Source: Centroberyx gerrardi (Eukaryota; Chordata; Actinopteri; Beryciformes; Berycidae). Taken from it: 64,000 nt of DNA. The stretch spans positions 15,516,725 through 15,580,724 of the forward strand of contig NC_136012.1 in assembly GCF_048128805.1 (NCBI RefSeq), in the 5' to 3' direction. The notes below the pieces were generated by a model, which was not told the origin of the DNA, did no database searches, and was given only the letters and a program-made list of their open reading frames with translations. Every line of letters starts with the position of its first letter. The stretch's first letter is position 1. Below are positions 3,481 through 41,557 of the stretch, piece after piece. The translations under genes and the position numbers were made by a program.

Positions 3481-4105
3481 TCATATATGTTATAAGATTA
3501 TGAAGGTTTTTATTTTACATTTTATATTATAAAATTTACATATTTTATATTTCATCTCAACATACTGTATATTACATTCAATAAAGCTCTTGTATGTTCA
3601 ATTAAGTCTGTTATTGTGTGATGAAGTTCCATATTTTTTGTGTATGCTATATTGTTATAGAAATGTCACCAAACAGTTGGTCTAGGGTCTCCTCTCCTAA
3701 CATTAATTACCAGATGGACGTATGTGACTTTCTGCTAAACTGTATTTAATGTGGGGCATGTGTTTTTGTTTGTTTGTTTGTTTGTTTGTTTTTTTTACAG
3801 AAAACAAGTGGTATATTAAAAGCAAAATTGACTCTCAGTGAAAAAACAGCCACATTTAGAATAAATATTGATTATATTGTTAGTAATAGAGGTATAGAAA
3901 ATGTTAATGGCCAACATACAGTATATTTACTAATTCCATTACACTTTCACTGCTCTAGGCTACAGGTTACTCATAACTGCAGGAATAAAGGTGTGTTTTG
4001 AAGAAATGCGCAACGACACTGTAACAGTAGTGTGCAAATAAATGTATTCAAATAAAATAATTCAGTTGTTCAGTTGTGTAAAGTGGATAGGAAGATGATA
4101 GGAGT

Positions 4106-5584
4106 TCAGAAGTGGCCTGCAGATGAAAGGATGTTCATGCAGGGCTTTGGCTCATCTGCTTCTGTTTGGCAGGTCTGTTGGAGTGGCGTCTCTGCTGTTG
4201 TAGCCATGTTGTCAGCAGATTTCTTGTTCTTCCCCCGGAATATGCGAGATAGCCAAGAAAAGAAGCCACGCTTCTTCTTTGGTTTTGTCGACATGCTGTC
4301 TTTGGCACTGGAACTCTGAGGTCCTGTGGGTTTGACTAGTTGGACGGGTGAAAGTGTTTTTTCCAGGGTCAGACAGGACAGATCCTTGGTGTCCTTCACA
4401 GTTTCAACCACAAGACTTGGTGGAGCTTTGACCTCAACCTGGATGGCTGGAGCCTGGGACTCCTGAAGGAGGTTGGTTGATCCTTCCTTAAGCAGGTGAA
4501 TCAGGGTTTTTTCAGCAAGAGAGACGGGGAGAGCCTTCTCTGAGGTGGAGTTATTGTCAGGTCCAGCAAAGAGGACAGTAACTTTTGTTCCCTCACAGCA
4601 TTCAGGTTGATGCAGGACGGTGACAGAGCTTTCAGCAGCGGCCTCAATCTGTGCACAAGGGCTGACTGTTTCCCTCTTGATGAAAGGACATTGTTTGTCC
4701 TCCTTCTCCAAGTCCTGGAGGAACAGCATCAGTTTAGAATCAGCTTTGACAATTGGCTCCCATTCATCAAGATGATCTTGAGTAGGGGCATGGTGTGCAG
4801 TGCAGGCAGACATAAATGTAGAACTCACTGGTGAGGAAGCAGAGATGTGCTTTTCACCAAGTTCCTCCTCCTCCAGGAGGACTGAGAGGAACTGCATCAG
4901 GTGAGAATCAGTGCTGACTAATGGTTCCCATTTGTCCAGATGGTCCAGAGTCGGCTCATGCTGTGGGGAGCAATCAGCTACAAATCTAGAGAGATGTGAT
5001 GAAGCATAGAGGAGCTCCTCACCAAATCCCTCCTTCTCCAAGTCAAAGTGGGATTTGACCAGTGGCTCCCACTCATCCAGGCAGCCCAGAGTAGATCCAC
5101 AGGGTGAGCAGCAGTCAGCCACAAATATAGATGTGTCACCTGGGGGAGCATAGAGGTATCTCTTTCCAACTGCCTCCAGGTGGTAGTCATCGTCAAAACC
5201 AATGGGAGAGTGCTGAAGCAGCCTCAACCTCTCAATGATTTTGAAGTCATCAGTCATTGGAGCCTCATGGGATGGAGTCTCAACAAGGTGGAGCAGGTTG
5301 GATTGAGCCCGAAGATGGGATGGGTGGATGGATGCTCCAGCATTACCTAACGCTGTGTCTTCGGTCATGAGAGGAGACTCTTTCTCTGTGGGAGGAAGGT
5401 CTCCTTTGTCCACATCCAAGAGAAGTTTGCATGCTGATGAAGCTGCACTGGCTATTGGTTCCCACAAATTGAGGCTCTCAAAACCAAAAGCAGGTTTGGA
5501 GCCGAGACCAACAGCAGACTGAGGTGAAAGGTCACAGTCGAGCTCAGCAGGAACTCCAGAAATGGAATGGTAAATGGACTGCAT
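4106..5584 (-). CDS. Uncharacterised acidic protein with three W-E-P repeats and basic C-terminal motif (main open frame)
   Basis: A 492-codon uninterrupted minus-strand frame, far longer than anything else in the window outside spliced genes. I do not recognise a family. Visible: a WEP motif at residue 41, then three tandem units of about 50 residues (roughly 143-190, 191-244, 245-298). Each has a Y/I-x-A-S/P start, a cysteine pair region, a [LH]-D-[EK]-WEP-[LI]-V motif at about 170, 217 and 273, and an acidic LEKE tail. The C-terminus carries a Lys/Arg-rich segment with FFSWLSRIF inside it (about 432-455), which could be a membrane- or nucleic-acid-contacting amphipathic stretch. The first Met and next four codons come from the repeat at 5571-5834, so this start is probably artificial; the natural 5' part appears to lie at 5835-5953. 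It may be a single-exon gene or an exapted frame. Function unknown. Confidence 0.6.
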   Translation of the reverse strand: MQSIYHSISGVPAELDCDLSPQSAVGLGSKPAFGFESLNLWEPIASAASSACKLLLDVDKGDLPPTEKESPLMTEDTALGNAGASIHPSHLRAQSNLLHLVETPSHEAPMTDDFKIIERLRLLQHSPIGFDDDYHLEAVGKRYLYAPPGDTSIFVADCCSPCGSTLGCLDEWEPLVKSHFDLEKEGFGEELLYASSHLSRFVADCSPQHEPTLDHLDKWEPLVSTDSHLMQFLSVLLEEEELGEKHISASSPVSSTFMSACTAHHAPTQDHLDEWEPIVKADSKLMLFLQDLEKEDKQCPFIKRETVSPCAQIEAAAESSVTVLHQPECCEGTKVTVLFAGPDNNSTSEKALPVSLAEKTLIHLLKEGSTNLLQESQAPAIQVEVKAPPSLVVETVKDTKDLSCLTLEKTLSPVQLVKPTGPQSSSAKDSMSTKPKKKRGFFSWLSRIFRGKNKKSADNMATTAETPLQQTCQTEADEPKPCMNILSSAGHF

Positions 5585-5834
5585 TTATATAGCGCTTTTC
5601 TAGTCTACCGACCACTCAAAGCGCTTTACAATAATGCCTACATTCACCCATTCATTCATACACCGATGGCGGCAAGCTACCACGCAGGGTGCTGGCACAA
5701 CCATCGGGAGCAATTTGGGGTTCAGTATCTTGCCCAAGGACACTTCGACATGCGGACTAGAGGAGCCGGGGATCGAACCACCGACCTTCTGATTAGTGAA
5801 CGACCCGCTCTACCTCCTGAGCCACAGCCGCCCC
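5571..5834. mobile_element. 264-bp teleost dispersed repeat inserted in a reading frame
   Basis: Begins TAAATGGACTGCATTTATAT, contains AGCGCTTTTCTAGTC and AAAGCGCTTTACA, a segment like TTGCCCAAGGACACTTCG, a tRNA-B-box-like GATCGAACC, and ends CTGAGCCACAGCCGCCCC. This pattern is a common interspersed element of fish genomes (SINE/MITE-like; I cannot give the exact family name). It is exactly 264 bp between the flanking open frames. No clear target-site duplication is visible. The segment at 40770-40905 shares its AAGGGCACTTCGGCA and terminal CC[GA]AGACCACC style, so it is probably a related copy. Confidence 0.8.
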
Positions 5835-5953
5835 AATAAAAGAGAGAAACTAGAGGCTTCAGCATAAAGGTATTGCTCCTTATTCAGGATTTTCGCAAAC
5901 ATGCAGTTGATGTTTTCATGGCGGTCGTCATTAAAGTCGAGATGAAACGGCAT
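5835..5953 (-). CDS. Probable 5' coding part of the W-E-P repeat gene
   Basis: A minus-strand ATG at 5953 opens a frame beginning MPFHLDFNDD and running about 39 codons up to the repeat, where it meets a TAG at 5810-5812. The phase here equals that of the main frame below the repeat. Removing exactly 264 bp gives one continuous frame of 527 codons, with TTA-TTC-CAT-TCC at the junction. The region upstream (5953-6080) has promoter-like features: GTGACGTATT (CRE-like) and CGGAAGT (ETS-like) on the gene strand. No GT donor sits at the repeat edge, so a simple intron with those boundaries is unlikely. Alternative: an unrelated short frame. Confidence 0.5.
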
Positions 5954-6770
5954 TTCGAGAGTATCTAACTTCCGTATCGTGACGTATTTCCGAGTGAAAC
6001 AGGAAAGACAGGCGGGACATAACGTCGGGAGGAATTTGATTTGAACGTTGCAAAGTGGGTGTGTCATAACACCCGAAGACACACCGAAGTACCATGCTGT
6101 TGCTAGCTAGCTAACTAATGAATCTTAGCCTCTTAGCTCTGTGCGCTAAAAGTTGAAGATTGATTGATGGGTGATGTCATGATATTATTGGTTGAAATTA
6201 GTTACGGGCATGCTTACGTAAGCACACGGCATATTTTGTTTTACAGGAAGAAAACATGATTGAATTTTGATATAAGAATACAATGAAATTGATTTTTGGT
6301 ATTTTTTTTGGCATATATTGTTAAATAGGTGCACTGTATGACCGGGGATATGATCTAAAAGGGTTAAAAAGGCATTTTTCATTTCATCTCGTCTTTAAGG
6401 GCATTGAGTTGAGCGACCATTTATGCTGAAAGAAATGCAATGGCAACATCTTGATAATCAAATAACCATGAGGACACCTGATGTAGCTTCGTTAAAGGTC
6501 AACATGCTTCATCATAGCTTCATCTTATGCCTTTCATCATACACTCAAAAAACTGCTTATGGGCATTAATTGGTTAGGCATAAAACAATCATGTTGGCTT
6601 TATTTAAATATAACATGTTTCTATTCATACTTATGTATAACTTATTAGATAAATGCAAATTTAACGGGTTGGACATGTAATGAGAGTCAAATAAATTGTA
6701 TTATTAATGAGAAAGATTTTAGTTGGCCACCGGAGACCATGTCAGAACTGCGCATGTCAGAAACCTGGGC
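5954..6770. other. Intergenic region between divergent units
   Basis: Holds the candidate promoter of the minus-strand repeat-protein gene (5954-6080), a GCTAGCTAGCTAAC motif near 6107, and AT-rich sequence. A CACTCAAAAAACTG near 6542 resembles one end of fish MITEs whose other end is TTTTTTTGAGTGTAG, such as that at 10415-10429. I see no coding exon. Confidence 0.45.
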
Positions 6771-8043
6771 GGGTGCGAGGGCTGTTTGAAAGATTACAGG
6801 CGCCAAACAGGACATAGCCAGCTACTTTTCGGTGAGGATTTCAATGTTTTATTACATGTCATGAAGTAGTTTGATAAAACTTGCAAATGGCCTCATTGCA
6901 TTATTTTTGCTGCTAGATCGCTTTCCACTTGCTGGCAAATCCGATTCCAATTACTGAGTTGATCACATTCCCATATGTGGCTAGTTAGCTAACGTTACTG
7001 TAGCAGTAATTGGGTTGTTTTTAGTTTAAATACCGTTACTTGTAAGTTAGTTGAAAAACGATTCTCTGAAAATGCCAATGATCTAGGTGACAGGTGGGAT
7101 TTTCTCGGTCTAGTTATTTTCCACATGGCAGACACTGAAGCTAGCTAACGTTAGCTAACTTGAGCAAATGTTAGCTTTAGCCAGCCTAGCCCGTTCGGCA
7201 GCTAACTCAAGTTTATGTAACGTTAGCTGCAAGTAACTGAAGGGGGCTAACACTGCACTGCAGTGACAGAACGATTGTGATTCCTTTTAAAGACATATGT
7301 AACGTTAGGTCTAGTTAATACTTTATGCTGGGTAGCATCATTTTGAATGCATTCGAGTTTCAAAGTTTGAGCTATCTGCCTTTTCCTCCTCCAGATCACG
7401 AGCTAACATCCAGTGAGGTGCACTGAGCCATCTACACAGTGAGTTCAAAAGCCTTTAGATGTATTTGTAATTATTTATTTATTTATTTTTAATTAAAGAT
7501 TGGTCGTTGTGGCAAAGGCTTTTTTGGGCACTGTATGTGTCTGTAACAGTTGATATTATTTTGGAGGTGGTTTTGATATAACACAGTTCCTAAATCAAGC
7601 TGTTCAGGTTGTATTGCAGTTGTCATCAAGGAGTGAGAAATAGAACCACCATGGGTCCCGCTCTGTCAAGTGACGCATAGGCTACTATGTGGTGTCGCAT
7701 GTTGATGGTTTAAGCTTTATTTGACCCTATATTAATACAGATAGTACAAATATCTTAACGGCTGTTAGAAGTAGACTTATGGTTCAGTTTGCTTCTGTAG
7801 ACACCTGGTTCAATGTTCAGTGTGTTTTCCACCTACTGTGCACCGCCTTGTTCATTGTTCTGATGGTAGCTAGTTATGTCTTTGCAGATAAATGCTGAGT
7901 TCATGTGGATTACTACGGCTCCACTGCAGTCAACGTTCTTTGGGAAACTGGACCAGCAGCCTGATACGCTGATGAAGATCTTCCGCAGCGCCAGAGGACG
8001 AGTTGGAAGAAAAATCCATAACATCTTGGCTGTCTTAGATGAG
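6771..8043 (+). CDS. Possible three-exon transcription unit; third exon encodes 52 residues
   Basis: Candidate exons: a first non-coding exon ending at 6831 (TTTTCG then GTGAGG; an E2F-like GGCGCCAAAC lies at 6799-6808), a second at 7395-7438 (CTCCTCCAG acceptor, GTGAGT donor, no ATG), and a third at 7888-8043 (TGTCTTTGCAG acceptor, GAG then GTATGT donor). The third is open in phase 0 and reads INAEFMWITTAPLQSTFFGK and on through a basic segment with SARGRVGRKIHN. The pattern ITT-x-PL-x-STF-x-x-LD reminds me of multi-copy fish proteins annotated as SAMD3-like, but this is memory and not an alignment. No following coding exon was found in the next 10 kb, so it may be a gene fragment, an exon trapped near a promoter, or a lncRNA. 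Confidence 0.3.
6978..7305. repeat. Cluster of GTTAGCTAACGTTAGC palindromic motifs
   Basis: Repeated copies of TAGCTAACGTTA and related pieces occur at about 6985, 7140-7160, 7168, 7218 and 7297. The perfect palindrome GCTAACGTTAGC lies at 7144-7155. A second cluster sits at 26299-26352, just upstream of syce3. Such motifs are frequent in fish genomes; whether they are remnants of a mobile element or binding sites cannot be told from the sequence. Confidence 0.6.
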
Positions 8044-9070
8044 GTATGTTTTGTCTCGGAAATGCATAAATGGTTTTGTACCCTTTCACACACAAATCAA
8101 GACAGACAGTATTAATTTACTGAATAAGAGGTGTTTGCTATAGATTTGTCTGGAAGACGCACTCAAATTTGAAACTGGGGAGGAGCTTGGTGAAACATGG
8201 GTCCTGCCTAGTTGCATCATGAGATATTGTATATAATGGCTTATGATACAAATATGTGCTCAACTTCATTGATCTGGTGGAGAGAGAGAGGGAGCAGATG
8301 GTCCTGGGGATCCTGAAGATGTGGGAGTAGTCATTTAGGGAGTGACGGTGCTCAGCGGCCTTCCGAGTGTTGCCTGTGCCTATACCAGGCTTCTTGGTTT
8401 GATTTATGCTCTGGATCTGAGCTACCCAACCGGTCTGCAATACACTTGAGGTGTTTCAAAAACTTTTTTTCAACTTGGATGGACAGAAACGGTCGGACAG
8501 AGTCCAAAAACGTACAATAAAGATGCGTCGGTAGACATTACAACTTTTGTCTATCTGAAATGCACTCACACGTGTTCATGTGCAGGCAGTTTACCTTGTT
8601 ACCCTTGTTTGGGTGTTTTAGCTGTTGTTAACCTTTGTCAGCTTTTGATTTGTTACTGTTGCTATTGTTTTCTTTGTCAGGGAAATGTAATTATGGGAGG
8701 AAATGTTTCTGCATTTATCCTTCAGTCACTCTCAGAATGGCTAGCATTAAAGCATTTATCATCGAAATGTTACAACACCTGACAGGCTGTTAAAAATGTG
8801 AAGAAAAAAAAATGTTTAACTGATGGGCAGAATCATGCATTTTTTTTATTTTATTTTTTTAAGCTTGATGGAACAAGTGCCTAAAGATGAAGGAGAAAAT
8901 CAAAATGTCAGGCTATCACTTTTAGAATTCACGTTTGGTATTCATGTAGATGTTGTACTCTTAGGGAGCTTAACTGGAGCAATTAGGGATTACATGCTTT
9001 GCTATTTTCCTATCACAAGCAAGCTTCTAAAGGATTCTGCATCATTTTTATAGAACTCTACTTTACATCA
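8044..9070. other. Intergenic, nothing recognised
   Basis: No supported exon. A minus-strand frame at 8138-8440 and a plus-strand frame at 8823-9053 are short, lack splice or family support, and look random. AT-rich with poly(T) and poly(A) runs near 8805 and 8843. Confidence 0.4.
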
Positions 9071-9071
9071 T

Positions 9072-9848
9072 GTTCTTTTAAAAGTACCTTGTAACAACGC
9101 ATTATGTAATAATACATTTTCACTTCATTATGTAATAACACCCGCATTTTGTAATAATCTGCCGCATTTTGTAATACACAGCCTGAACGCAATATGTAAT
9201 AAATTTCCCCGCATTTTAGTTTTTGTAGTGACTTAAGAATCGGGGTGATGTGGTCTGACCTTTTGGTCCCTGTAAGAACTCTAGCAGCTGCATTTTGAAT
9301 AAGCTGAAGCTTTTTGATGGTCTTTTTGGGGAGCTCTGTCAAAAGACCATTGCAGTAGTCTGCTAGAAGTAAAAGCGTGAATGAGTTTTTCCAGGTCGGC
9401 TTTTGACATGAAGTCCCTGAGTTTGGCTGTATTTGTAAGATGATAAAAAGCTGATCTTGTTACTGCTTTTATGTGGCTATTTAGACTAAGATCAGAGTCA
9501 ACTATAACGCCGGTCTAATTTAATATTTGGGAAGTTTAATTTAGCTTAATTGTTAAAAATGTAACGTGTACAGATGAAGACATCCATTTTGCTTGGTTAT
9601 TACATAATGCACTGTATTATTACATTTTCATCATAAAAAAAGTGCAACTCCCGCATTTTGTAATAACCATCGCAATATGTAATAATTTATTACAAAATGC
9701 GGGGAAATTTATTACATATTGCGTTCAAGCTGTGTATTACAAAATGCGGCAGATTATTACAAAATGTGGGTGTTATTACATAATGAAGTGAAAATTTATT
9801 ACATTTTGTCGTGTTATTACATAATGTGGTGTTACATTCCTTTTAACA
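9072..9848. mobile_element. Long inverted-repeat element with TTATTACA/AAAATGCGG motifs, interrupted by LINE sequence
   Basis: The arm at about 9090-9213 is nearly identical in reverse complement to the arm at about 9690-9840: for example TCTGCCGCATTTTGTAATAC at 9158-9177 against its reverse complement near 9738-9757. Arms are built of repeated ATTATGTAATAA and CGCATTTTGTAATAA motifs. Between them lies a LINE-derived piece. This is the structure of a foldback or non-autonomous DNA transposon that received, or captured, a LINE fragment. High arm similarity suggests fairly recent activity. Exact ends and target-site duplication are not certain. Confidence 0.7.
9226..9525 (-). pseudogene. LINE reverse-transcriptase C-terminal remnant (L2/Rex-like)
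   Basis: The minus strand reads DLEKLIHAFT, then after a small deletion near 9365 shifts frame to DYCNGLLTELPKK, then TIKKLQLIQNAAARVLTGTK and DHITPILKSL. This is the typical thumb/C-terminal region of the reverse transcriptase in L2/Rex-type non-LTR elements of fish. Frame disruption and the missing remainder show it is dead. It lies inside the inverted-repeat element. Confidence 0.75.
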
Positions 9849-10110
9849 GGAGCAGATTTGGACTCCTCTTAGTCTCTGTCTTTCCCTCTTTCTTTTTCTA
9901 TCTCTCTTGCTCTCTTTCTTGGTATTTCTCTCTCTGTTTCTCTCTCTGTCTCTTTATCCTGGTTGTTGAAGTTTGTCAGTTGCACTTAAAAGATTTGCAA
10001 TAAACACCTTAAAATGCCATTTGAGTTGTCATTTTATGAACATGGTAGTTTTTCGTTTAGGTCATGTAAAAACCTGAAAGAAATGCATCCAGGAAACAAT
10101 TCATGTCAGA
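9849..10110. other. Intergenic CT-rich stretch
   Basis: A pyrimidine-rich tract of CTCT/TTTCT type occupies 9870-9960, followed by AT-rich sequence. No gene seen. Confidence 0.4.
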
Positions 10111-10111
10111 T

Positions 10112-10318
10112 AATATAGATATGTTTGACTTGGGCCCAAATCACATTGGATCAACGTAATAGATATATGTTTGATTTGGGGGGAAAACACATTGGATCAA
10201 TGTAATATAGATATGTTTGACTTTGGTACAAATCACATTGGGTCAATGTAATATAGATATGTTTGACTTTGGTACAAATCACATTGGGTCAATGTAGTTT
10301 AAATATGTTTGACCTAAA
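10112..10318. repeat. ~46-bp minisatellite, about 4-5 copies
   Basis: Unit ATATGTTTGACTTTGGTACA followed by AATCACATTGGGTCAATGTA and ATATAG. Copies start near 10117, 10163, 10211, 10257 and a partial one near 10303. The two central units are identical; the first two differ by several substitutions. It lies upstream of a TTTTTTTGAGTGTAG end at 10415-10429, so it may be the expanded core of a MITE. Confidence 0.75.
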
Positions 10319-11257
10319 CATTTTAATTACATGTAATGAACATGGTAAGGTACAGTTGGATTATTTTACGTGGAAATTTGCCACATAATAAAAAATACGT
10401 TGAACTAATGAGTTATTTTTTTGAGTGTAGTTTTGTTTCAACAACAAATCTAACTGTGAATTTACAATGTAAATCAAATTAAGGAAGAACTGGACACAAA
10501 TGCAAATCCTTCAACACAAACAACTAGTCTTTCCTGACTGTCTCTTGTCTGAATGTCTCTTGTTTGTTCAGCAAAATCCTCTGTGCTAATCTTTTCCTGC
10601 TAAATAATACAATTATAAATACATGTGGCTTACCAAGATGGAAATCACTCTCCATGTTTTCCTTTCTAAAAGGTAGATGTTGATGTTTCTCCAAATGAAT
10701 GCAATGTGAGTTTTCTTTCTCAATGTGCAGGTGAACACCGATCAGAGATGAAACTGTGAGTCTGTGTTTGTGTTCAGGTCAATCGCTCCTTTATGACACT
10801 GACATTCTAGTTCTATCAACTTTGCTGCATTCTGTCCAGCTGCATTATGATTCAACAGATGAAGTTCAGGCCACAGTAAACTTTGATGACAGAGATGTCT
10901 CACTTCATACATAGTTTATAAACTACACATGGTTAAAAAACACATTACTGAATATTTGGAATTGTATATTAAGATACCATATTTTTTTATGCAGAAAACA
11001 TCCATTTAATTGCTAATTCCTATTGCACTTTCACTGTTTTAAGCCACAAGTGAGCTCACTCTAATCTTACTACTACCTACTACTATTACTACTATATATT
11101 ACTACTACCTTTTACTACTACCTACTATAATATCTGAGTGGATACTTTAGGAAAATAAAAAGAAAAGTTATTCATCTTCAATTCAGCTTTTCAGGTGTAG
11201 AATTTATTTTTTCCAGAACAACCTGTGCATCAACTCATGTAGTTAATAGAAACATGG

Positions 11258-11545
11258 GTAGCACTTTACAATGGCTTTTTTCCAGTGCATGAACCTTTAA
11301 GCACCGATAACATTTGTTTAGTCCCCCCTAATTACGTTATTGTATCCTGTAATTATTTTTTAAGTATGCAGTAATCACAAAAACGGTTATACCATAACTA
11401 CCTTATAAGTCTCTCATAATTACAAAATTGTTACCCCTTAATTCCCGGACTTTACCCTGTAACTACAGCATTGTTATTTTATTAGTACCCCATAATTACA
11501 AACTAGTTACACTGTAATTAGCGGGCTGTAAAATAAAACGTTACT
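11258..11545. mobile_element. MITE-like element with GTAGCACTTTACA end
   Basis: Begins GGTAGCACTTTACAATGG and ends GGGCTGTAAAATAAAACGTTACT. The ends are imperfect inverted repeats (AGTAACGTTTTATTTTACA on the other strand), and the interior holds repeated CCC-TAATTAC type segments. This combination is typical of abundant short non-autonomous DNA elements of fish. Exact family not determined. Confidence 0.6.
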
Positions 11546-14097
11546 GATAATTCAGAAGTCAAGTTAATGTTCTGAATTTTCGGGACAGATATACACATTG
11601 AATTATGTATCTCTAATGGCACATGACATACACTGAACAATGAGCTACTGACTGAACTAGTGGAGAAGTTATGACATGACTTTGTTAGTGGTCAGAGCCC
11701 AACAGAACAAATGTTTTTGGTTTAGGAGAAGAGCAGCTGCTCCACTGCTCTCCCATGGGGACTTTTAGGATTTGGAGCTCAGCCTGGAGGGAGTGAAAAT
11801 AGAATAATCCAGTGTGTTGTAAACTGCTTACTCCCTCTGCGTTAACATCATTAACAACATTCTCTGTCTTTGGCTGGCATCCACTTGAAATGGCTGGAAG
11901 GTTATTTAAACTCCAAACCCTTGTTTCCCTAAAATTGGAAAACATTACAGCTGCAGATTGAAAAAGAACACAGCAACCATGGCTCATTGTTTCAGGTGTA
12001 ATGGCATTCATTTGATTGACAGTAATGTTCAGGAAATGGAAATTGACATTTTAATTCTCAATTAAGTAGGTGATAAACCTGAGTAAGCCATTGACACTTT
12101 AATCTGAAATATAGCTGGTAGGGCAAAGGTAAATTTGCATGATTTCAACAGACTCATTATCACATTCTGCAAATACAATAACACCTAATTACCCACCTGC
12201 CTTTAATCCTATCCATATCAAACCAGCATTGATCCTTTTTTCCTCAGGGAACAAGCTGTACATATTAGACAAATTCTGTGTTGATACAATAATGATAATA
12301 TGGATTTTAAATGGGATTACACTAATCTTTACTGGAAGAGCTTTGGCCATGTGCTAGCCCAGGGGAAGAGGAACCCTGCAGAGACCAATCACCCTCCTGG
12401 CTCCAGGGCTCCAGCCTGCTCTGCCCTCAGGTCCACTAGGGCTGGCAGCTGTTATTAGAGCTGTCAGTCGTGGAGAAGACTGAGAGCGGCTCTCCATGGG
12501 CCGGCTGTATCTGACCTTACCAGAAAGGAAAGTCTTCCTATCATATCGGTAATTCAGCAGCTGTGGGATTTCACCATCCTCCCCTCAAACGTCATACCAG
12601 CCAACCACATGGGAGTTTTAGGCAAAAAACACTTCAGGGTCAATCAGAGTTGCGATCTTTCATTCAGTCAATCCTGATCTATCTATCATAATATGATTCC
12701 ACGAACAATGTACACTTAAGCGTAACAAAAACGTACAAGCTGTGTGTAAAGGTAGAGATTCTGCAGATGAATTTGAAATGGTGTTAAGTGCCAGTTCCCT
12801 GTGTGTAAATGTTTCAAGTCAGTACCATTGGGACTAGTGAATTGACAGGTTGATGTAGAGTGGAGAAAAACACAGAGGCCAAGAGAGTGCAAGGATAAAC
12901 TCCAGGGAATAGAAGTAGCAGAGCTACCTGAATAGGTGTTGGTGCACCAGGCAGGGTATCGGCATCCTCATTAGCTATGCTGAGGAACCTTAGTCATTAG
13001 CAACACCTCTACTGCCACATCCTCTAGTTGTCTGGATCCTGTCTCTATCTTTCTTCATGTTACCATTAGCAACTTTGTTGTCATGGTAGTGCTCCGATAA
13101 TAAGCTTCCCTCACTTTCTCTCCTTTATTGCTCCAGCTTTGCCATACCATGTAATGAGAAAACTCACTTAACAGGGTAGCAGAAACAACATTACAACTCT
13201 CCCTCAGCTTCTTGCTCGCTCTCTGCATCTCTCTCCCTCTCTCCCCTCCTCAATTCTCTCCATATTTTCAACTCTGTCAGTCCTTTGTCCAATCAAGTGG
13301 AATATTTTGTCCCATGCTTCCCTATGTGAGTGCTGCAGTCTGCTCCTTTTTTTTTTTTTTGAGAAGCAGTGAACGCGTGAATCCATCACACTACTTTCCA
13401 TCAAGCAGCCCGGTGGATCCCGTGGGATCTCATCCTGGCCCGAGTCATTCAGGAAATCAGCTGTAACCCTGGCAACAACCAGCACAGAGGACAAGTCAAG
13501 GGTGACAGTACATATAAGCACTCCCAGTTCTGAGCCTCTTTTGAACCATTCGTTTACGCTTCAAGTATTGTTGTGCCATGGCGGTTATCGGCCATTATCT
13601 CCAGCTTCAACATTTACGTCTCCTCATTGTCTTCCCGGTGCTTCTGCCCCGACAATCGCAGCTCAGGTCTATAAGATTACGACTCATTTTCTCACCATTC
13701 ATTCTCTTTTCCTTGGGCCTGTGCCTCTCTCTATTCATAGCATTAGCTTTGGTACTGACCTCACCTCTATGTAATTCCTTGGCTGTATTCTCTCTACTAC
13801 AGCAGCGCTTACTTTTAACAAATCAGTCTACTGACCCATAGTCTCTGCTTCCAGAATCATCCTCTTTTCCCCGGAGCAAATCCTGTCCCCTTTGCCTTTC
13901 TATTTGAAATTCAGATGAGTGGAGCGTCAGGAGTGGTTATCGTCTGGGCCCGGGTGGCATCTTATTAAATTCCACAGGAGAGAGGAGAGGTGAACAGAGA
14001 ATATGTTCCCCTGTCACACTCACCATGCAAGCTCTGATGGGCCAGTGGGACTGGGAGAGAGGTAATAATGTCTATCTGGGTACCCATATTGGGTGCC

Positions 14098-23427: not shown

Positions 23428-24831
23428 TCAAACCTCTGTGCCCTCTCGAGGGTAGAGGATTCCTGCTGATCCCAGTCCGGGGTAGAAATGCCCATTGAAC
23501 TGGCTGAGGATGGGGCTGCTGTACCCGAGAGAAGAGTGGGTGGGTGAGGAGGAGAGTGCAGGGGGAGGTGGCAGCGGTGATGCCCACTCTGGGCCGCCTG
23601 AGCTGGGGGAGTAACTGCCGAAGCTTCCAGGCTGCGTGGGCCTCTGAGGCCCGTCCATGGGGAGGTTGATCTGCAGCGGCCTGCTTAACCCGTCCCCTCC
23701 GACCTCATTAGCTGCTCCGGCTGTCACTCCAGACATCTCAGATAAGAAGCTGCTCAGACAGGGTGCGGGGCCTGAGGATGAAGGGGAGGGGATCCTGTCT
23801 GGCGTGGGGGCGATGTCGAGGGCAGAGTTGCCGGAGTGCTTGGGGCTGCCCCTCTCACTGTCACCTGACTCAGGAGCCCCCGAACCCCCGTCCCCGCCAG
23901 AGAGGGAGTCGGATTTCCTCTTCCTTTTGCGGCGGAAGTTTCCGTTGTCGAACATCTTCTCGCAGTTTGGGTCAAGTGTCCAGTAGTTGCCCTTCCCTGT
24001 AATATCAGAGTGTAGAGTGGGTGAGATTTGTTTTAGAATTGAAACATGGGACAATAGGTTAACGAATCTAGGTTAATGAAAATAGGTTGATGATATGCTA
24101 CACATCAGGAATACACAAGAGCACATGTTGTGTAAGGCTTTCTTCTTTTGAAATATTATAAGCCGGTGCTACTTGCTTGTTTCAGAAAGACATTCAAAAC
24201 ATATAAAAAAAGACAGGTATAAGTAATTACCTGGATCATCCTCGTCTCTTGGTACTTTTTTGAAGCAGTCATTGAGTGACAGGTTGTGTCTGATGGAGTT
24301 CTGCCAGCCTGCCTTGCTCTTGTTGTAGAAGGGGAAGTTATCAGCCACATACTGGTAAATTTGACTCAATGTCAGCCTCCTATCTGGGGCCCCATGGATG
24401 GCCATGGCGATGAGAGCGGAGTAGGAGTACGGGGGTCTGACCAGCTTCATCAGGTCTTCCTGAGAGGGGAGCGAGAACCAACCCAGTTCCCCTCCTGGAC
24501 CCCCGGCTCCAGCGGGGCCCAGGTAAGGCCTCTGCATGCCGTAGTGCTGAGGGACAAAGGGCGGGCCGGGGTTCCCTGGCGGGCTGGTGGTAGCCAGGTA
24601 AGGCGACGTGTTGATCCCGGAGCCGTTGAACCACAGGTAGGGGTTGGGGGAGGAGGTGGTGTAGTCGCTCAGGTCGTAGGAGGACGGGGTGGTGCGCTGA
24701 GGGCTCGGCAGCGAGGGAGGAGGGTAGTAACAGTCACTGTACATGCTGAGCTCTGGGGGCTCCTGGCCGAGGCTAGGGAACTGCGGGCCACACCGAGGAG
24801 GAGACTGGCCCTGGGCCTCGAACGAAGACAT
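23428..24831 (-). CDS. foxi1: Forkhead box protein I1
   Basis: Two coding exons, 24231-24831 and 23428-23996, joined GATCCAG/GGAAGGG, giving 389 residues. The product is a forkhead transcription factor. The domain spans about 129-222: [34 protein letters not shown], the recognition helix [16 protein letters not shown], and after the intron [17 protein letters not shown], with a basic RRKRKRK nuclear signal. The N-terminus has the [15 protein letters not shown] block and the C-terminus ends [19 protein letters not shown], both FoxI1 hallmarks. The single intron inside the forkhead domain is usual for FoxI genes. FoxI1 acts in otic placode, pharyngeal and ionocyte development. An in-frame upstream ATG at 24942 would add 37 basic residues; I prefer 24831 because the upstream part looks like UTR. 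The nearby lcp2 and C5orf58-like genes support foxi1 over foxi3. Confidence 0.95.
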
Positions 24832-25026
24832 TGTGAAGGCAGAGTTTGTTCTCACCTTTCCGAGTCTTTTCTTAAGCCTTTGCCCTTGGTCGTCCTTTCT
24901 TTCTGTGTCAAAATCTTTTGCCTTGAATTTGGAAACCCTCAAAAGTCCTTCTCTTGTTCAGTCCTTGGTAGATCTTTAGTGCAGGATGTGAGTTGAACCG
25001 AATTGTGGTCTCTAGGCTTCTGAGTT

Positions 25027-36339: not shown

Positions 36340-38591
36340 TTATTTAGGTCCACGATATCTCCTCCTAAAGCCATGTCCATGAGCACTTTCTCTCCTGGCG
36401 CACACATGCTTGACTATAACTTGAGAGCAGTCCTCACACTTCACCTTGCAGCACCAGTGGAATTTACAGTTGCAGCTGCTGGCCACCTCCGCGCGCCTCT
36501 CCTCCACCCTCAGGCCGCAATCATGACACAACCTGCGGCAGCTCCGTCTCTCCCACTGGGTCAAACCGTCTCCGTGCTGCAGACACTCCCGGCCCTCTGT
36601 GCCGTACAGCCCCAGACTGCTGTTCTTCCTGCAGTAGTCTGGAGAGTCCTCCAGATAGATGAGCTCCGTCTGGGCGATGCTGCCGAAAGCGTCCACGATG
36701 CCACCTCGGTTGTCCGCGCTATTGCCAGCCCTCATCCGCTTTTTGTCTATCTCCAGTTTCTGGGCATGGTCGTGCTTGGCTTTCAAGTAGTTACCAATGT
36801 CCCTGAAGTCGGACAGCTGTGTCCAGCATGTTTGGACGCTGCAGCTCTCTGACATGCCATGACATCTGCAGATGCGCTTCATTGTTGCCTTCACAGCCTG
36901 TTCAAAACAGGATGATGATGATGAGATTGGAAAACAAGTTTTGGAAGGTGTAGCCTACATGAACTTGAATAACGAATGCATAACAGCATGAATTAGCCTA
37001 TGTAGCCCATTAAATTAAGTTAATTTCTGTCAACTAAATTAGGCTATCCATTTCGTAATGTCAACTAATGGTGTGAATGAAGTGCAAACGCTCACCATCC
37101 GTCCAGCCTCGTTGTTGTGCAGGTTGACAGCGGCCCGGGAGTCCTGGCCAGTCTCCTGTGCATCCACATACTGTTTGGAAATCCTCTCCCCGAAATCCAC
37201 GTTATCACTACAGCCACCCCATAACCAGCCACGTCCACCTGTGATACACACAAATATCATGTTAATATCCAACAAAGGTCGCATTCACCAAAGTGAACCC
37301 TCCCCATTAAGAATAAGGAAATATAATGTATTTAGAATCGATGTCATATGGCATATGCCTCATGGGCTCATTAGCATATCCTGAGTATGCATTTATTTAT
37401 TTATTTGTTTATTTTGCATTAGCCAATAGGCAAATTCACACAAATCTGGCCTCACCAATTTTCCCGTTGTTTGAGACGTCGCAGCCGCAGTTGTCGAGGT
37501 CCCCCAGACTGCAGTTCCTGGTCAGTGTGTACATGACTCCTGCTGCACTGATGGCATGAACGAAAGACGTCTCTCTGGTGGCTGTGAATGAATAATAAAA
37601 TGAGCAATCAGGTTAATTCAATGATTACCAATTTTCTCATCACCAAAAATATATAGACTGCAGAGTCTGACAGACTGATTTCAAAATAGTGAATATATTA
37701 ATATGTCCTGCCAAGCTATTTCAAAATGCAAGCAAATATATTTATGTGGCTATAAAATACCCTGAGATTAGCACATAGGTCCTTTTAAAATATCAGTAAA
37801 TATATTCACTAATAATGTAACCTGGGAAATACTTTTGGGTCCTGCCATAAGATGCATTTACATTATTCCATGTCAAATGTATTTCTGTATCTGTGAATAG
37901 CCCACATATAAATGCATGTAGAACATATAATCTAACATACATAACATGTTATTTAAATGTGTCCAAATGAGATCAGTTTTCTCTTAGGATTTTCTTAAGT
38001 TATAGACCCGGCATCCTTACGTAATCGTGCAAGAAGGGATGATATTTAGAGACATAGCCTACCGCTTCTTAGTCCTTTCAGTTGGATGGCGCTGTCGGGA
38101 CAGTTCCACCGGTCCCAAGCAAACTGGTGTTTACACTCCTCTATCCCATTCTGCGTGCCCACCTGCACGCTGCTTGCATAGGTGAGATAGGCCTGCAGGA
38201 GAGGCAGTGACAGTCACTTTTTGCCCTGAATGCCCTGAAAACTCTGCCCCCTCCCTTTAACCAGGTAATTGTTCTATAAAAGTTTAATATAATTTTGTAA
38301 GTATTAATGTGTGGCCACAATCCCCAAATAATTATTCAACAATACAGGAAAAATAAGTTTTGAATGACCAAGTTTTTTTTTTTTTTTTACCTTGGGTCCC
38401 GTCATAAGAAAGTTATTTGCGACCCTGAGAAAAAGATAGAAGATACGAGAGAATTAGAGAAATACAATCTTACATGTGTAACAAACATGCAGACAAATAC
38501 AGTATATATGTATAATAAGGTCTTACCAAGCATGTCCCGGACAGCTTTTGTAGTAAAGAAGTGGCAGCAGCCAAAACAATGAATGAACCAT
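36340..38591 (-). CDS. wnt8a: Wnt8a, downstream copy (ORF2 of tandem pair)
   Basis: Six coding exons: 38527-38591, 38391-38424, 38063-38192, 37456-37581, 37096-37238, 36340-36897; all in phase, 351 residues. Starts [20 protein letters not shown], a signal peptide. Then the Wnt8 blocks [99 protein letters not shown], the EDSPDYC loop, [21 protein letters not shown] and [16 protein letters not shown]. Ser182 is the expected palmitoleoylation site. The following residue is Glu where most Wnts have Gly (CHG-x-SGSC). Secreted ligand acting through Frizzled/LRP to drive ventrolateral mesoderm and posterior neural patterning. The C-terminus after [10 protein letters not shown] is short and basic. 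Confidence 0.95.
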
Positions 38592-38660
38592 CTTGAGTCT
38601 ACACTGTTGCCCCACAAAGAAGAGAACTACTTATTTTGCGCCGTTGTGTTGCAACTTTCT

Positions 38661-38730
38661 CTTTTATTTGAATGAGGAACAAATGCAACTCTTGTTCTTT
38701 GTCTCCATGGTCCGAGAAAGCTGATTGGAT
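38661..38730 (-). promoter_or_regulatory. Candidate own promoter of wnt8a ORF2
   Basis: On the gene strand ATCCAATCAG (38721-38730, CCAAT box) is followed about 55 bp later by CAAATAAAAG (38661-38670, TATA-like) and about 70 bp later by the ATG at 38591. The spacing suits a TATA/CCAAT promoter with a short 5'UTR. Inferred from position only. Confidence 0.4.
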
Positions 38731-38908
38731 GACGAGTTCAGGAAACGCCTATATGCGCACTTCAAAGGATGGCATTAGGCGACAGTTTATTTTCTACCCT
38801 AAGGCTGCATGACACCAGGGCACCAATATACAAATAGCGGAATCAGAATTTCAAAGCTGTAATCCACACTTTGACAAATCAAACCGAGACATGTATATTA
38901 TTAAAATA

Positions 38909-38914
38909 TTTATT
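38909..38914 (-). terminator. Poly(A) signal after wnt8a ORF1
   Basis: TTTATT on the plus strand, AATAAA on the gene strand, 388 bp after the stop of the upstream wnt8a copy and before the second copy begins. Confidence 0.45.
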
Positions 38915-39302
38915 AGGTAATTTCTTCAATGTAAAAATACATATAACATAAAATATTAGACAATTTACAGACTATAAAGAAGACAAACCCAACAAAAACC
39001 GACCAAATACCCACCAAAACATAAACACTTCCAAGTGATAAAGGAGAGTGAGCGTGCAGGGGGAATTTTGTGCTCATGGAAAAAAAAATTGTAATGAATG
39101 TACAGGAGGTTTATCAAATCAAATCAGATAAAGTGCATTGAAAGGCTGTCGGCTGATGTGGTAAAAGGAGTCATGTAGGCTATATAACATTCACGTAATA
39201 CAGAATCATAATTATTGATTCAGAAATAACAGACAGTCACATTGCTGAAATGAATGATAAATAATGAGCATATTGCCGTAATGCATCCCTCGCCAATGGC
39301 AA

Positions 39303-41557
39303 TCAATGCCGGCGCGCACGGTGCCTCCGCTTCGATTTATTCTGTGGTTTTCTCCCTCTTTCCCTGCGTGCGCAATAATATTTGGTCACAACTTGTGTAC
39401 ATTTCTCACACTTAACTGTACAACACCAGTGAAATTTACAGTTGCAGCTGCTGACCACCTCAATGCGCTTCTCCTCCACCCTAAGGCCGCATTCATGGCA
39501 CAGCCTGCGGCAGCTCCGTCTCTCCCATTGAGACATGTTCTTGCCACCCTGCAGACACTCCCGGCCCTCTGTGCCCTGAAAGCCCAGGCTCCGGTTCTTA
39601 AGGCAGTAGTCTGGAGAGTCCTCCAGATAGATGAGCTCCGTCCGGGGGATGCTGCTAAAAGCGCCCGCGATGGCACCTCGGTTGTCCGCGCTGTTCCCAG
39701 CCCTCAGCCGCCTCTTGTCCATCTCCAGCTTCTTCGCCTGGTCGTGCTTCATCTTCAGGTAGTTGCCCACATCTCTGAAGTCGGACAGCTGCATCCAGCA
39801 GGTTTGGATGCTGCAGCTTCCAGACACTCCGTGACACTTACAGGCTTTCCTCATGGTAGCTTTGATTGCCTGCCAGGAGAGTGAGAATGTTAGTTGGAAA
39901 TTTAATTGATATCAAGCCAACATTAAGTTTTTCCTCTTTTCCTTCTTGAATTTGAGTTTTAATAAACCAATATCTTACCAATCTGCCTGCCTCATTGTTA
40001 TGCAGGTTGATGGCTGCGCGGGAGTCATGGCCATTTTCTAGCGCGTCCACAAACTGTTTGGAGATCTTCTCCCCAAACGCTGCATTATCGCTGCAACCTC
40101 CCCAGATCCATCCCCTGCCACCTGGGGATTCAGAAATGTCTGAGTTATCCTTTGGAACACAAGTCATAAGCAGTACCTTCTCACAATTTTCCCATGGACA
40201 TGTGGACAGTAGTGATTCAATATTAGGCTATTTCATTTTAAGGCACAAACTGTAAAATTGTCTATCATAATAGGTGATATAATATAATATTCAGCCTTAT
40301 TTGTTTATTTCCAAACAAGTGAGAAAATCTGTCATTGGGGTGTGGTAATTTTACTTGTTTCCAAAGTCAATCAACTTTCTTGAATCGACTAATTTTCTTG
40401 GTACTATAGGAGTTGAGCGAGCTTCTGCCAAAACATTGTCCTTGACTCACTATCTCTGTCTATATAGACAACTACTCTACTTTGTCACTCATTACCAACG
40501 TACCCATCTGTCCAATTCTGGAGTCATCGCAGCCGCAGTTGTCAAAGTCCCCCATGCTGCAGTTCTTGGTCAGCGTGTACATCACTCCGGCCGCGCTGAT
40601 GGCATGGACAAAAGACGTTTCCCTTGTGGCTAAATTGAGAAACAAAGAAAATAAACCACGTTTGTTACACTTTACTATCAAATTTGGCACTGTAAAGGCT
40701 TAATGGCCGTGCGCAATCTCTGTGCGTAAAAGGCGCGTAATAGCGTTATCAGAGGTTGATACACATGGTACATGTTGGGCCCCCTAGCGCCCCTTCAGCT
40801 GTGGATTCAGTGTCTTGCTTAAGGGCACTTCGGCAGGATTTAAACTTGCCAGGTTTGAAGCAGAGTCGCTGGTCTATCTAACCACGAGACCACCCTGCTG
40901 CTGTATGTCATGCGTAAGGATAGAATACAAGGATACACATTTTCTTACCACTTCTAAGTCCGTTGTGTGTGGATAATTGGAGTGCGTTCTCTGGACAGTT
41001 CCACCTGTCCCATGCGAACTGGTGTTTACACTCTTGGATTCCACTCTGTGCGCCCACTTGCACACTGCTGGCATAGGTTAGAAAGGCCTTGAAAGAGAAA
41101 GCAAAGAACACTGTTATTCTCAGGGTTCGCATTGAATAACCAATTTAATATTATTAAAAAATAATCAAATATTACCCTGTTTGGCTTTCATTCATTTATT
41201 ATTTATTAATCTATTCATTCACTTTTTGTCAACCAACATCGTAATCTGAATGTTCTAATAAGAGGTTTTTCTAACCTCTTCGTGTATCTCGTAGGCCTAA
41301 ACTATAATAGTCCAGAGAGAAGAAAAGAAATTAACAATTTACCTTAGGTCCAGTCATGAGGAAGTTATTTACTGTCCTATAGAAGGGAAGGAAGCACGAG
41401 ATGCATGTTAAGATCAACCAAAAACCAAAAATCAATTTCATACTGTGGTATTTTTAAATGACAGCCACAACAACTACGCGACATACCAAGCCGAGGCAAC
41501 TTGAACATGACAGAACATGGATAGAGCCACAGCTGTAAGGAGATGCCAGGGTTCCAT
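39303..41557 (-). CDS. wnt8a: Wnt8a, upstream copy (ORF1 of tandem pair)
   Basis: Six coding exons: 41487-41557, 41343-41376, 40949-41087, 40504-40629, 39979-40121, 39303-39869; all in phase, 359 residues. Starts [20 protein letters not shown], a signal peptide. The exon structure is the same as in the downstream copy; exons 2, 4 and 5 are identical in length (34, 126, 143 bp), and exon 3 is 9 bp longer (an added LSTHNG segment). Core motifs: [78 protein letters not shown] with Ser187 at the acylation site (same number as in Xenopus Wnt8), [30 protein letters not shown]. The basic tail [20 protein letters not shown] is longer than in copy 2. Zebrafish wnt8a also has two tandem coding units; this pair fits that arrangement. 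Confidence 0.95.
40770..40905. repeat. Dispersed repeat fragment in wnt8a ORF1 intron
   Basis: Contains GTCTTGCTTAAGGGCACTTCGGCA, then a degenerate B-box-like part and CTAACCACGAGACCACC. It resembles the 3' half of the element at 5571-5834. It lies in the intron between exons 40949-41087 and 40504-40629. Confidence 0.55.

Follow-up and report, generated by a model that had tools for sequence, protein, structure and literature searches.

The window analyzed here is the whole stretch of 64,000 nucleotides from Centroberyx gerrardi (contig NC_136012.1; C16:15516725-15580724 of a 779-Mb genome). On its minus strand, a reading frame opens with an ATG at 5953, meets a repeat at 5834-5571 and runs on to a stop at 4106 with its phase unchanged. 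The original prediction had described a gene split by this repeat, and its outline was accurate: the ATG, the minus-strand element and the in-phase continuation are all present, removal of 264 bp gives 527 residues, and a TAG (5812-5810) and a further ATG (5584) lie where they had been placed. The TAG was the one in-frame stop named for the element; two others were found, at 5602 and 5587. As a chance control, 3244 points were sampled, and 166 of them (approximately 5%) had an ATG-led in-phase open stretch of at least 39 codons on their upstream side. Coordinates of all features related to this frame are given in Table 1.

Other genes were observed elsewhere in the window. A forkhead gene, which we take to be foxi-type, is located at 23431-24957 of the minus strand (Pfam Forkhead, E = 5e-32 at 24172-24957). 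Two tandem wnt genes, approximately 3 kb apart, occupy 36343-41089 of the same strand (Pfam wnt, E = 7e-43 and 4e-45) and presumably resemble the wnt8a pair of fish.

Table 1. Features associated with the split frame (window coordinates)
Feature	Position	Strand	Basis
Window copy of the ~3.3-kb inverted-repeat DNA transposon, enlarged by three nested insertions	3490..11546	-	blastn against 19 genome copies and the complete 3309-bp copy L060
5′ terminal inverted repeat	11299..11546	-	many relatives carry its inverted counterpart at their other end
Exon 1, coding part ATGGAGAGTGATTTCCATCTTG, then GTAAGC donor	10634..10655	-	predicted from sequence; joins exon 2 in frame in L060
Predicted intron (293 bp in L060), enlarged here; acceptor TTTCTTTCAG at 6435-6426	6426..10633	-	comparison with L060
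3.9-kb nested insert, CACTCAAAAAA inverted ends, TA duplication 10429-10428 / 6541-6540	6542..10427	-	blastn to copies
Exon 2, interrupted by MITE and SINE	4106..6425	-	alignment to relatives
460-bp MITE, TTAA duplication 6398-6395 / 5934-5931, ends AGACGAGATGAAA / AGTCGAGATGAAA	5935..6394	-	blastn and genome copies
SINE insertion, 285 bp: TCT target duplication, CTTTTATT, 264-bp core, CCATTCCATT tail	5561..5845	-	empty site in 19/19 relatives
SINE core, tRNA-like head 5831-5761, 3′ end CAGTCCATTTA	5571..5834	-	genome copies and fetched ends
Remaining open frame, 492 codons, start within SINE	4106..5584	-	ORF and own-genome protein search

An inverted-repeat transposon with a predicted gene

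A protein search of the C. gerrardi genome with the 492-codon frame returned 89 rows at 87 places, 86 of which lay beyond the window on many chromosomes (best 87 of 444 candidates scored). These 86 places were 82-90% identical to the query, and in none did the match begin before query residue 6, the five SINE-derived codons being left out each time. The frame that had been read as a gene interrupted by a repeat is one member of a large set of copies borne by a transposon. No internal stop was present in 72 of the 89 rows, a proportion biased to intact copies because the best candidates were scored first.

DNA homology of 19 fetched copies extended well past the ORF, corresponding to window positions from 11544 down to 3490, and many copies end in an inverted version of 11299-11544. 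Ends of the element read GGTAACGCTTTATTTTACAGCCCGCTAATTA or near variants. A 20-base end occurred exactly 151 times in the genome versus 0 for a reversed-pattern control, and the 248-bp inverted repeat was found at no fewer than 40 places (40 scored among 439 first-look candidates). When 37 loci were scanned with a strict end pattern required at both ends, six element pairs were available for analysis of target duplications; five had perfect 8-bp duplications and one had a single mismatch. In some copies, such as L066, an 8-bp duplication was not clear by eye. A 3′ inverted repeat of the window copy was not detected by blastn against the 19 copies and L060. In addition, 18 terminal inverted repeat (TIR) loci were selected apart from the ORF matches. 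The ORF was retained in whole or in part at 13 of them, and neither the SINE nor the MITE of the window was reported at any of the 18. The family has inverted repeats at both ends and an 8-bp duplication, as TIR DNA transposons do, and these features, together with the ORF-bearing copies, imply that the presumed gene is part of a DNA transposon.

A shorter derivative was also observed, and possibly a second. One locus (L079, G000:C2:15967100-15968900) is a 1406-bp form that lacks the ORF but has the two inverted repeats and an 8-bp duplication without mismatch. This suggests that the element can do without the ORF in cis, unless the ORF was deleted once the copy was already in place. At G000:C11:22967415-22967897, two exact TIR ends face each other 483 bp apart; the transposon may have a MITE-sized derivative there.

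In the complete copy L060, exons 1 and 2 lie on either side of a 293-bp intron and join into an uninterrupted frame of 534 codons; the other open frames of this copy do not exceed 96 codons. The exon-1 motif was present in 16 of 20 sequences (the 19 copies and the window) and a strict acceptor pattern in 15 of 20. A two-exon gene encoding a protein of about 534 residues is thus predicted from the sequence. The protein contains WEP-containing repeats, three units of which were compared pairwise (0 of 2000 shuffles for each comparison); scores of a fourth, more divergent stretch were reached by 268, 51 and 1 of 2000 shuffles. Its C-terminus carries a basic patch. No significant match was detected in Pfam, NCBIfam or PDB (best E 0.08-0.27), and gp41 and other PDB rows with E of 0.12-0.92 were taken as chance. 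Searches of viral contigs revealed no relative, none of six pattern matches being confirmed.

Three elements nested in the window copy

The repeat that splits the frame is a SINE, probably of tRNA type. It had been assumed that the insert was the 264-bp core alone; however, all 19 fetched relatives of the frame show the empty site AGTTTC^TCTGGAG, and the true insert is 285 bp long (5845-5561). Its extra bases are the TCT duplication, eight at the 5′ junction and ten of the tail, and the 527-residue join therefore retains seven foreign codons. Since 285 bp equal 95 codons, the phase was kept, the chance of which is one in three. Homology to insert-free copies provides direct evidence that 5934-5846 and 5560-4106 were once one frame. 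The proposal that a young repeat broke a formerly continuous frame holds.

The genome contains at least 40 places with this SINE at 94-100% identity, including that of the window (40 scored of 189 first-look candidates). Inside the window, the repeat, described earlier as dispersed, has a single copy and one weak relic, and its dispersal is genome-wide. The relic is a decayed SINE-like sequence at 40777-40882 of the minus strand that matches SINE positions 67-120 (E = 0.014). Fixed ends were seen among 39 fetched copies: 5′ GGGGCGGCTG in most, and at the 3′ end usually CAGTCCATTTA followed by variable CCATTTA units. The window SINE differs from the majority of these copies at 5 of 264 positions (1.9%), a value that understates its age because the 39 copies were chosen by similarity to it. 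The insertion looks young, as had been suggested, on the evidence of this near-identity to other copies; the open 3′ part, the argument used originally, dates nothing by itself.

Like tRNA-derived SINEs, the element has a body, a short repeated 3′ tail, (CCATTTA)n, many similar copies and a putative tRNA-like head, and no unusual trait was seen in comparison with them. A full-length tRNA model gave a weak score of 13.8 bits on its head, below the 29-bit cut-off, and ARAGORN found no tRNA; by eye, we regard some motifs in the head as box A/B-like. The SINE possibly belongs to the V-SINE group and may resemble its V-domain. Target duplications were 3 bp (TCT) at the window SINE, 6-10 bp in some other copies and not clear in many; the 3-bp duplication and the eight extra bases at the 5′ junction are atypical for a SINE. 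No exact match to the SINE tail was found in viral contigs or prokaryote genomes. Literature text contained no match to the SINE-tail and TIR strings, which says nothing on the content of Repbase or Dfam.

The ATG at 5953, previously regarded as the original start, lies inside a MITE, and relatives are homologous to the frame only from 5934 on. All 16 copies that cover the site of this MITE (of 19 fetched) lack it. A 446-bp MITE query against the C. gerrardi genome gave 41 rows, comprising the window's own, 39 other places with 99% identity and a partial match with 93% (40 scored of 1137 first-look candidates), which indicates a burst that is very recent and may still be under way. The element shares with TTAA-type MITEs a short length without a long ORF, inverted ends of the form AG(A/T)CGAGATGAAA, many near-identical copies and a TTAA duplication, the last judged from the window copy alone; we presume a piggyBac- or Kolobok-like origin. 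It differs from other such MITEs in that it happens to provide the broken frame with an in-phase ATG, located near the MITE end and reading outward (MPFHLDF) into the old frame. The in-phase match of both the MITE-borne ATG and the SINE length was taken as coincidence.

The third element, a 3.9-kb insert, sits in the intron and is absent from L060, L061, L063 and L064, the four copies compared at this site. Tandem 46-bp repeats are present within it at 10111-10340. A reverse-transcriptase-like fragment was noted by eye at 9061-9459, with no Pfam match.

Decay of the window copy and possible selection on the gene

Immediately after the acceptor, the window copy reads CATAAATGG, whereas relatives read CATCCATGCAAATGG or similar. 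This change brings a TAA just past the acceptor, and the predicted spliced product is therefore MESDFHLA*, with a stop after eight codons. Two routes of rescue had been proposed, and both fared poorly. For a start at 5953, 20 introns could bring the frame back; the highest-scoring site pair among them totals -0.64 bits and includes a very poor donor (-8.31). All 300 shuffles reach -0.64 bits, but the shuffled stretch contains neither of the two sites and this control is uninformative. The new start at 5584 has T at -3 and is preceded by eleven other ATGs from 5953 on. Its CTATATAA lead belongs to the 3′ end of the SINE and was accordingly rejected as a separate promoter sign. Rescue by splicing or by restart at 5584 thus appears unlikely from these sequence features. 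The window copy is a relic, and we infer that it makes no protein. Its long open remainder is a fossil with which decay has not yet caught up.

Selection on the gene was assessed by comparing copies. For 17 ORF-ascertained copies, a set that left out two prematurely stopped ones, mean dN was 0.044 and mean dS 0.075, with a ratio of 0.587 over 136 pairs. In an analysis of 28 sequences (10 of 37 fetched element loci without the start motif were left out), the ratio of nonsynonymous to synonymous changes relative to expectation was 0.96, near neutral, for private changes and 0.72 for changes common to three or more copies; two poorly aligned decayed copies, L083 and L094, contributed 134 of 431 private changes. 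Among 18 ORF-ascertained copies, distances were 0.045 at codon positions 1+2, 0.055 at position 3 and 0.056 in the intron; the corresponding values for 18 TIR-ascertained copies were 0.055, 0.065 and 0.067. All eight TIR loci with an ORF start motif were broken before the end, a result biased towards decay because these loci were chosen away from the best ORF matches. The view that purifying selection keeps most copies open was dropped, as the 72/89 and 8/8 values are biased in opposite directions. A fair reading of these comparisons is that sources whose frame still worked, themselves under weak constraint, gave rise to the copies in a burst of fairly recent date, and that the copies then decayed in place in a roughly neutral way.

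Interpretation and origin of the carried gene

We conclude, with a probability of roughly 0.93, that the window frame is a dead copy of a gene-carrying DNA transposon, broken by three nested mobile elements. A transposon that has inverted repeats of ~250 bp, makes 8-bp target duplications and carries a gene predicted to have two exons spread to many sites, and one copy lies in the window. Probably after the arrival of this copy, a TA-flanked element entered the intron, the TTAA MITE entered exon 2, and the young SINE added 285 bp (95 codons) to exon 2. The spliced message of the copy is predicted to end after eight codons.

Other explanations have to be weighed against this one. The locus could instead be a single-copy fish gene that starts at ATG 5953 and is split by a polymorphic SINE, which would be spliced out or bypassed through ATG 5584. 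The frame is indeed continuous from one flank to the other, the codon score of the head frame is exceeded by fewer than 7% of the 480 stop-free non-coding frames used for comparison (a weak test), and a 14-residue motif of the head resembles the internal repeats of the protein (5 of 5000 shuffles; 0.2% of 1457 control peptides), although this motif was spotted before its significance was tested. A general alignment of the head with the internal repeats was not significant, with 1122 of 5000 shuffles reaching its score; homology of the head to these repeats, overall null with one suggestive motif, was superseded by the genome copies. Given the 86 other places, the location of ATG 5953 in a MITE that relatives lack, the poor score of the best frame-restoring intron and the unfavorable context of ATG 5584, a single-copy gene is extremely improbable. 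A second alternative is that the ORF family represents a selected host multigene family spread by segmental duplication, with the transposon ends merely nearby. The preponderance of open rows, though ranking favors intact copies, and the pairwise dN/dS of 0.587 would fit such a family. However, homology stops at the inverted repeats with their 8-bp target duplications, private changes are near neutral (those common to at least three copies have a ratio of 0.72 of expectation), and distances at codon positions versus the intron show only weak constraint, so we regard a host family as very unlikely.

Instead of being a passenger gene captured by the element, the ORF might also encode the element's own mobility protein, such as a helper or transposase of an unrecognized kind. 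Consistent with this idea are the ORF parts held by most TIR loci picked away from ORF matches, the weak historical constraint and the shortage of other long open frames in L060. On the other hand, the protein has no significant database match, its acidic, repetitive composition with a basic end is, by eye, unlike that of known transposases, and the target duplication of the ORF-less L079 is perfect, even if this copy may have lost the ORF only after it inserted; overall, a mobility function is possible, if rather unlikely. No transposase with these ends was found in the three loci examined (L084, L086 and L088), and evidence for mobility therefore rests on copies, ends and target duplications. 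By eye, a BEL-type retroelement is nested in L084 and a LINE-type piece is present in L088, while L086 shows nothing relevant. A profile search for KDZ (Zisupton) gave no match, but neither did its control. Members of the hAT and Zisupton superfamilies generate 8-bp target duplications, as does the element described here, for which no transposase linked to its ends was found. A host donor gene for the ORF was not found in the C. gerrardi genome among the best 87 of 444 candidates scored.

The nest of mobile elements around a dead transposon copy is real but ordinary; some novelty attaches to the transposon itself and its predicted two-exon gene. We tentatively propose, at slightly less than even odds, that a vertebrate inverted-repeat transposon took an entire two-exon gene with it to loci that number in the dozens or hundreds, this gene being either a captured host gene or an unrecognized mobility protein. 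Transduplication has been described mainly from plants. Plant Pack-TYPE elements are non-autonomous DNA transposons with non-transposase coding DNA (PMC8903248). Both they and the C. gerrardi element carry coding DNA other than a transposase, but the latter occurs in a vertebrate and has a seemingly complete two-exon gene for which the donor host gene was not found. In Caenorhabditis elegans, Turmoil-1 contains sequences from two known genes inside its inverted repeats, and its 2008 abstract stated that transduplication was unknown in animals (PMC2572040). Turmoil-1 and the present element are both animal transposons with unrelated protein-coding sequence, whereas here a long ORF is situated between the inverted repeats, not in them.

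These observations indicate that a frame in a fish genome may look like a gene, have an apparent start codon and many open relatives, and still be cargo of a transposon. The start and the sequence splitting such a frame can both be other transposons. If the carried gene was captured from a host, it would represent a vertebrate case of transposon-driven gene amplification, in which copies of ~3.3 kb would be open to counting, dating and tests of expression.
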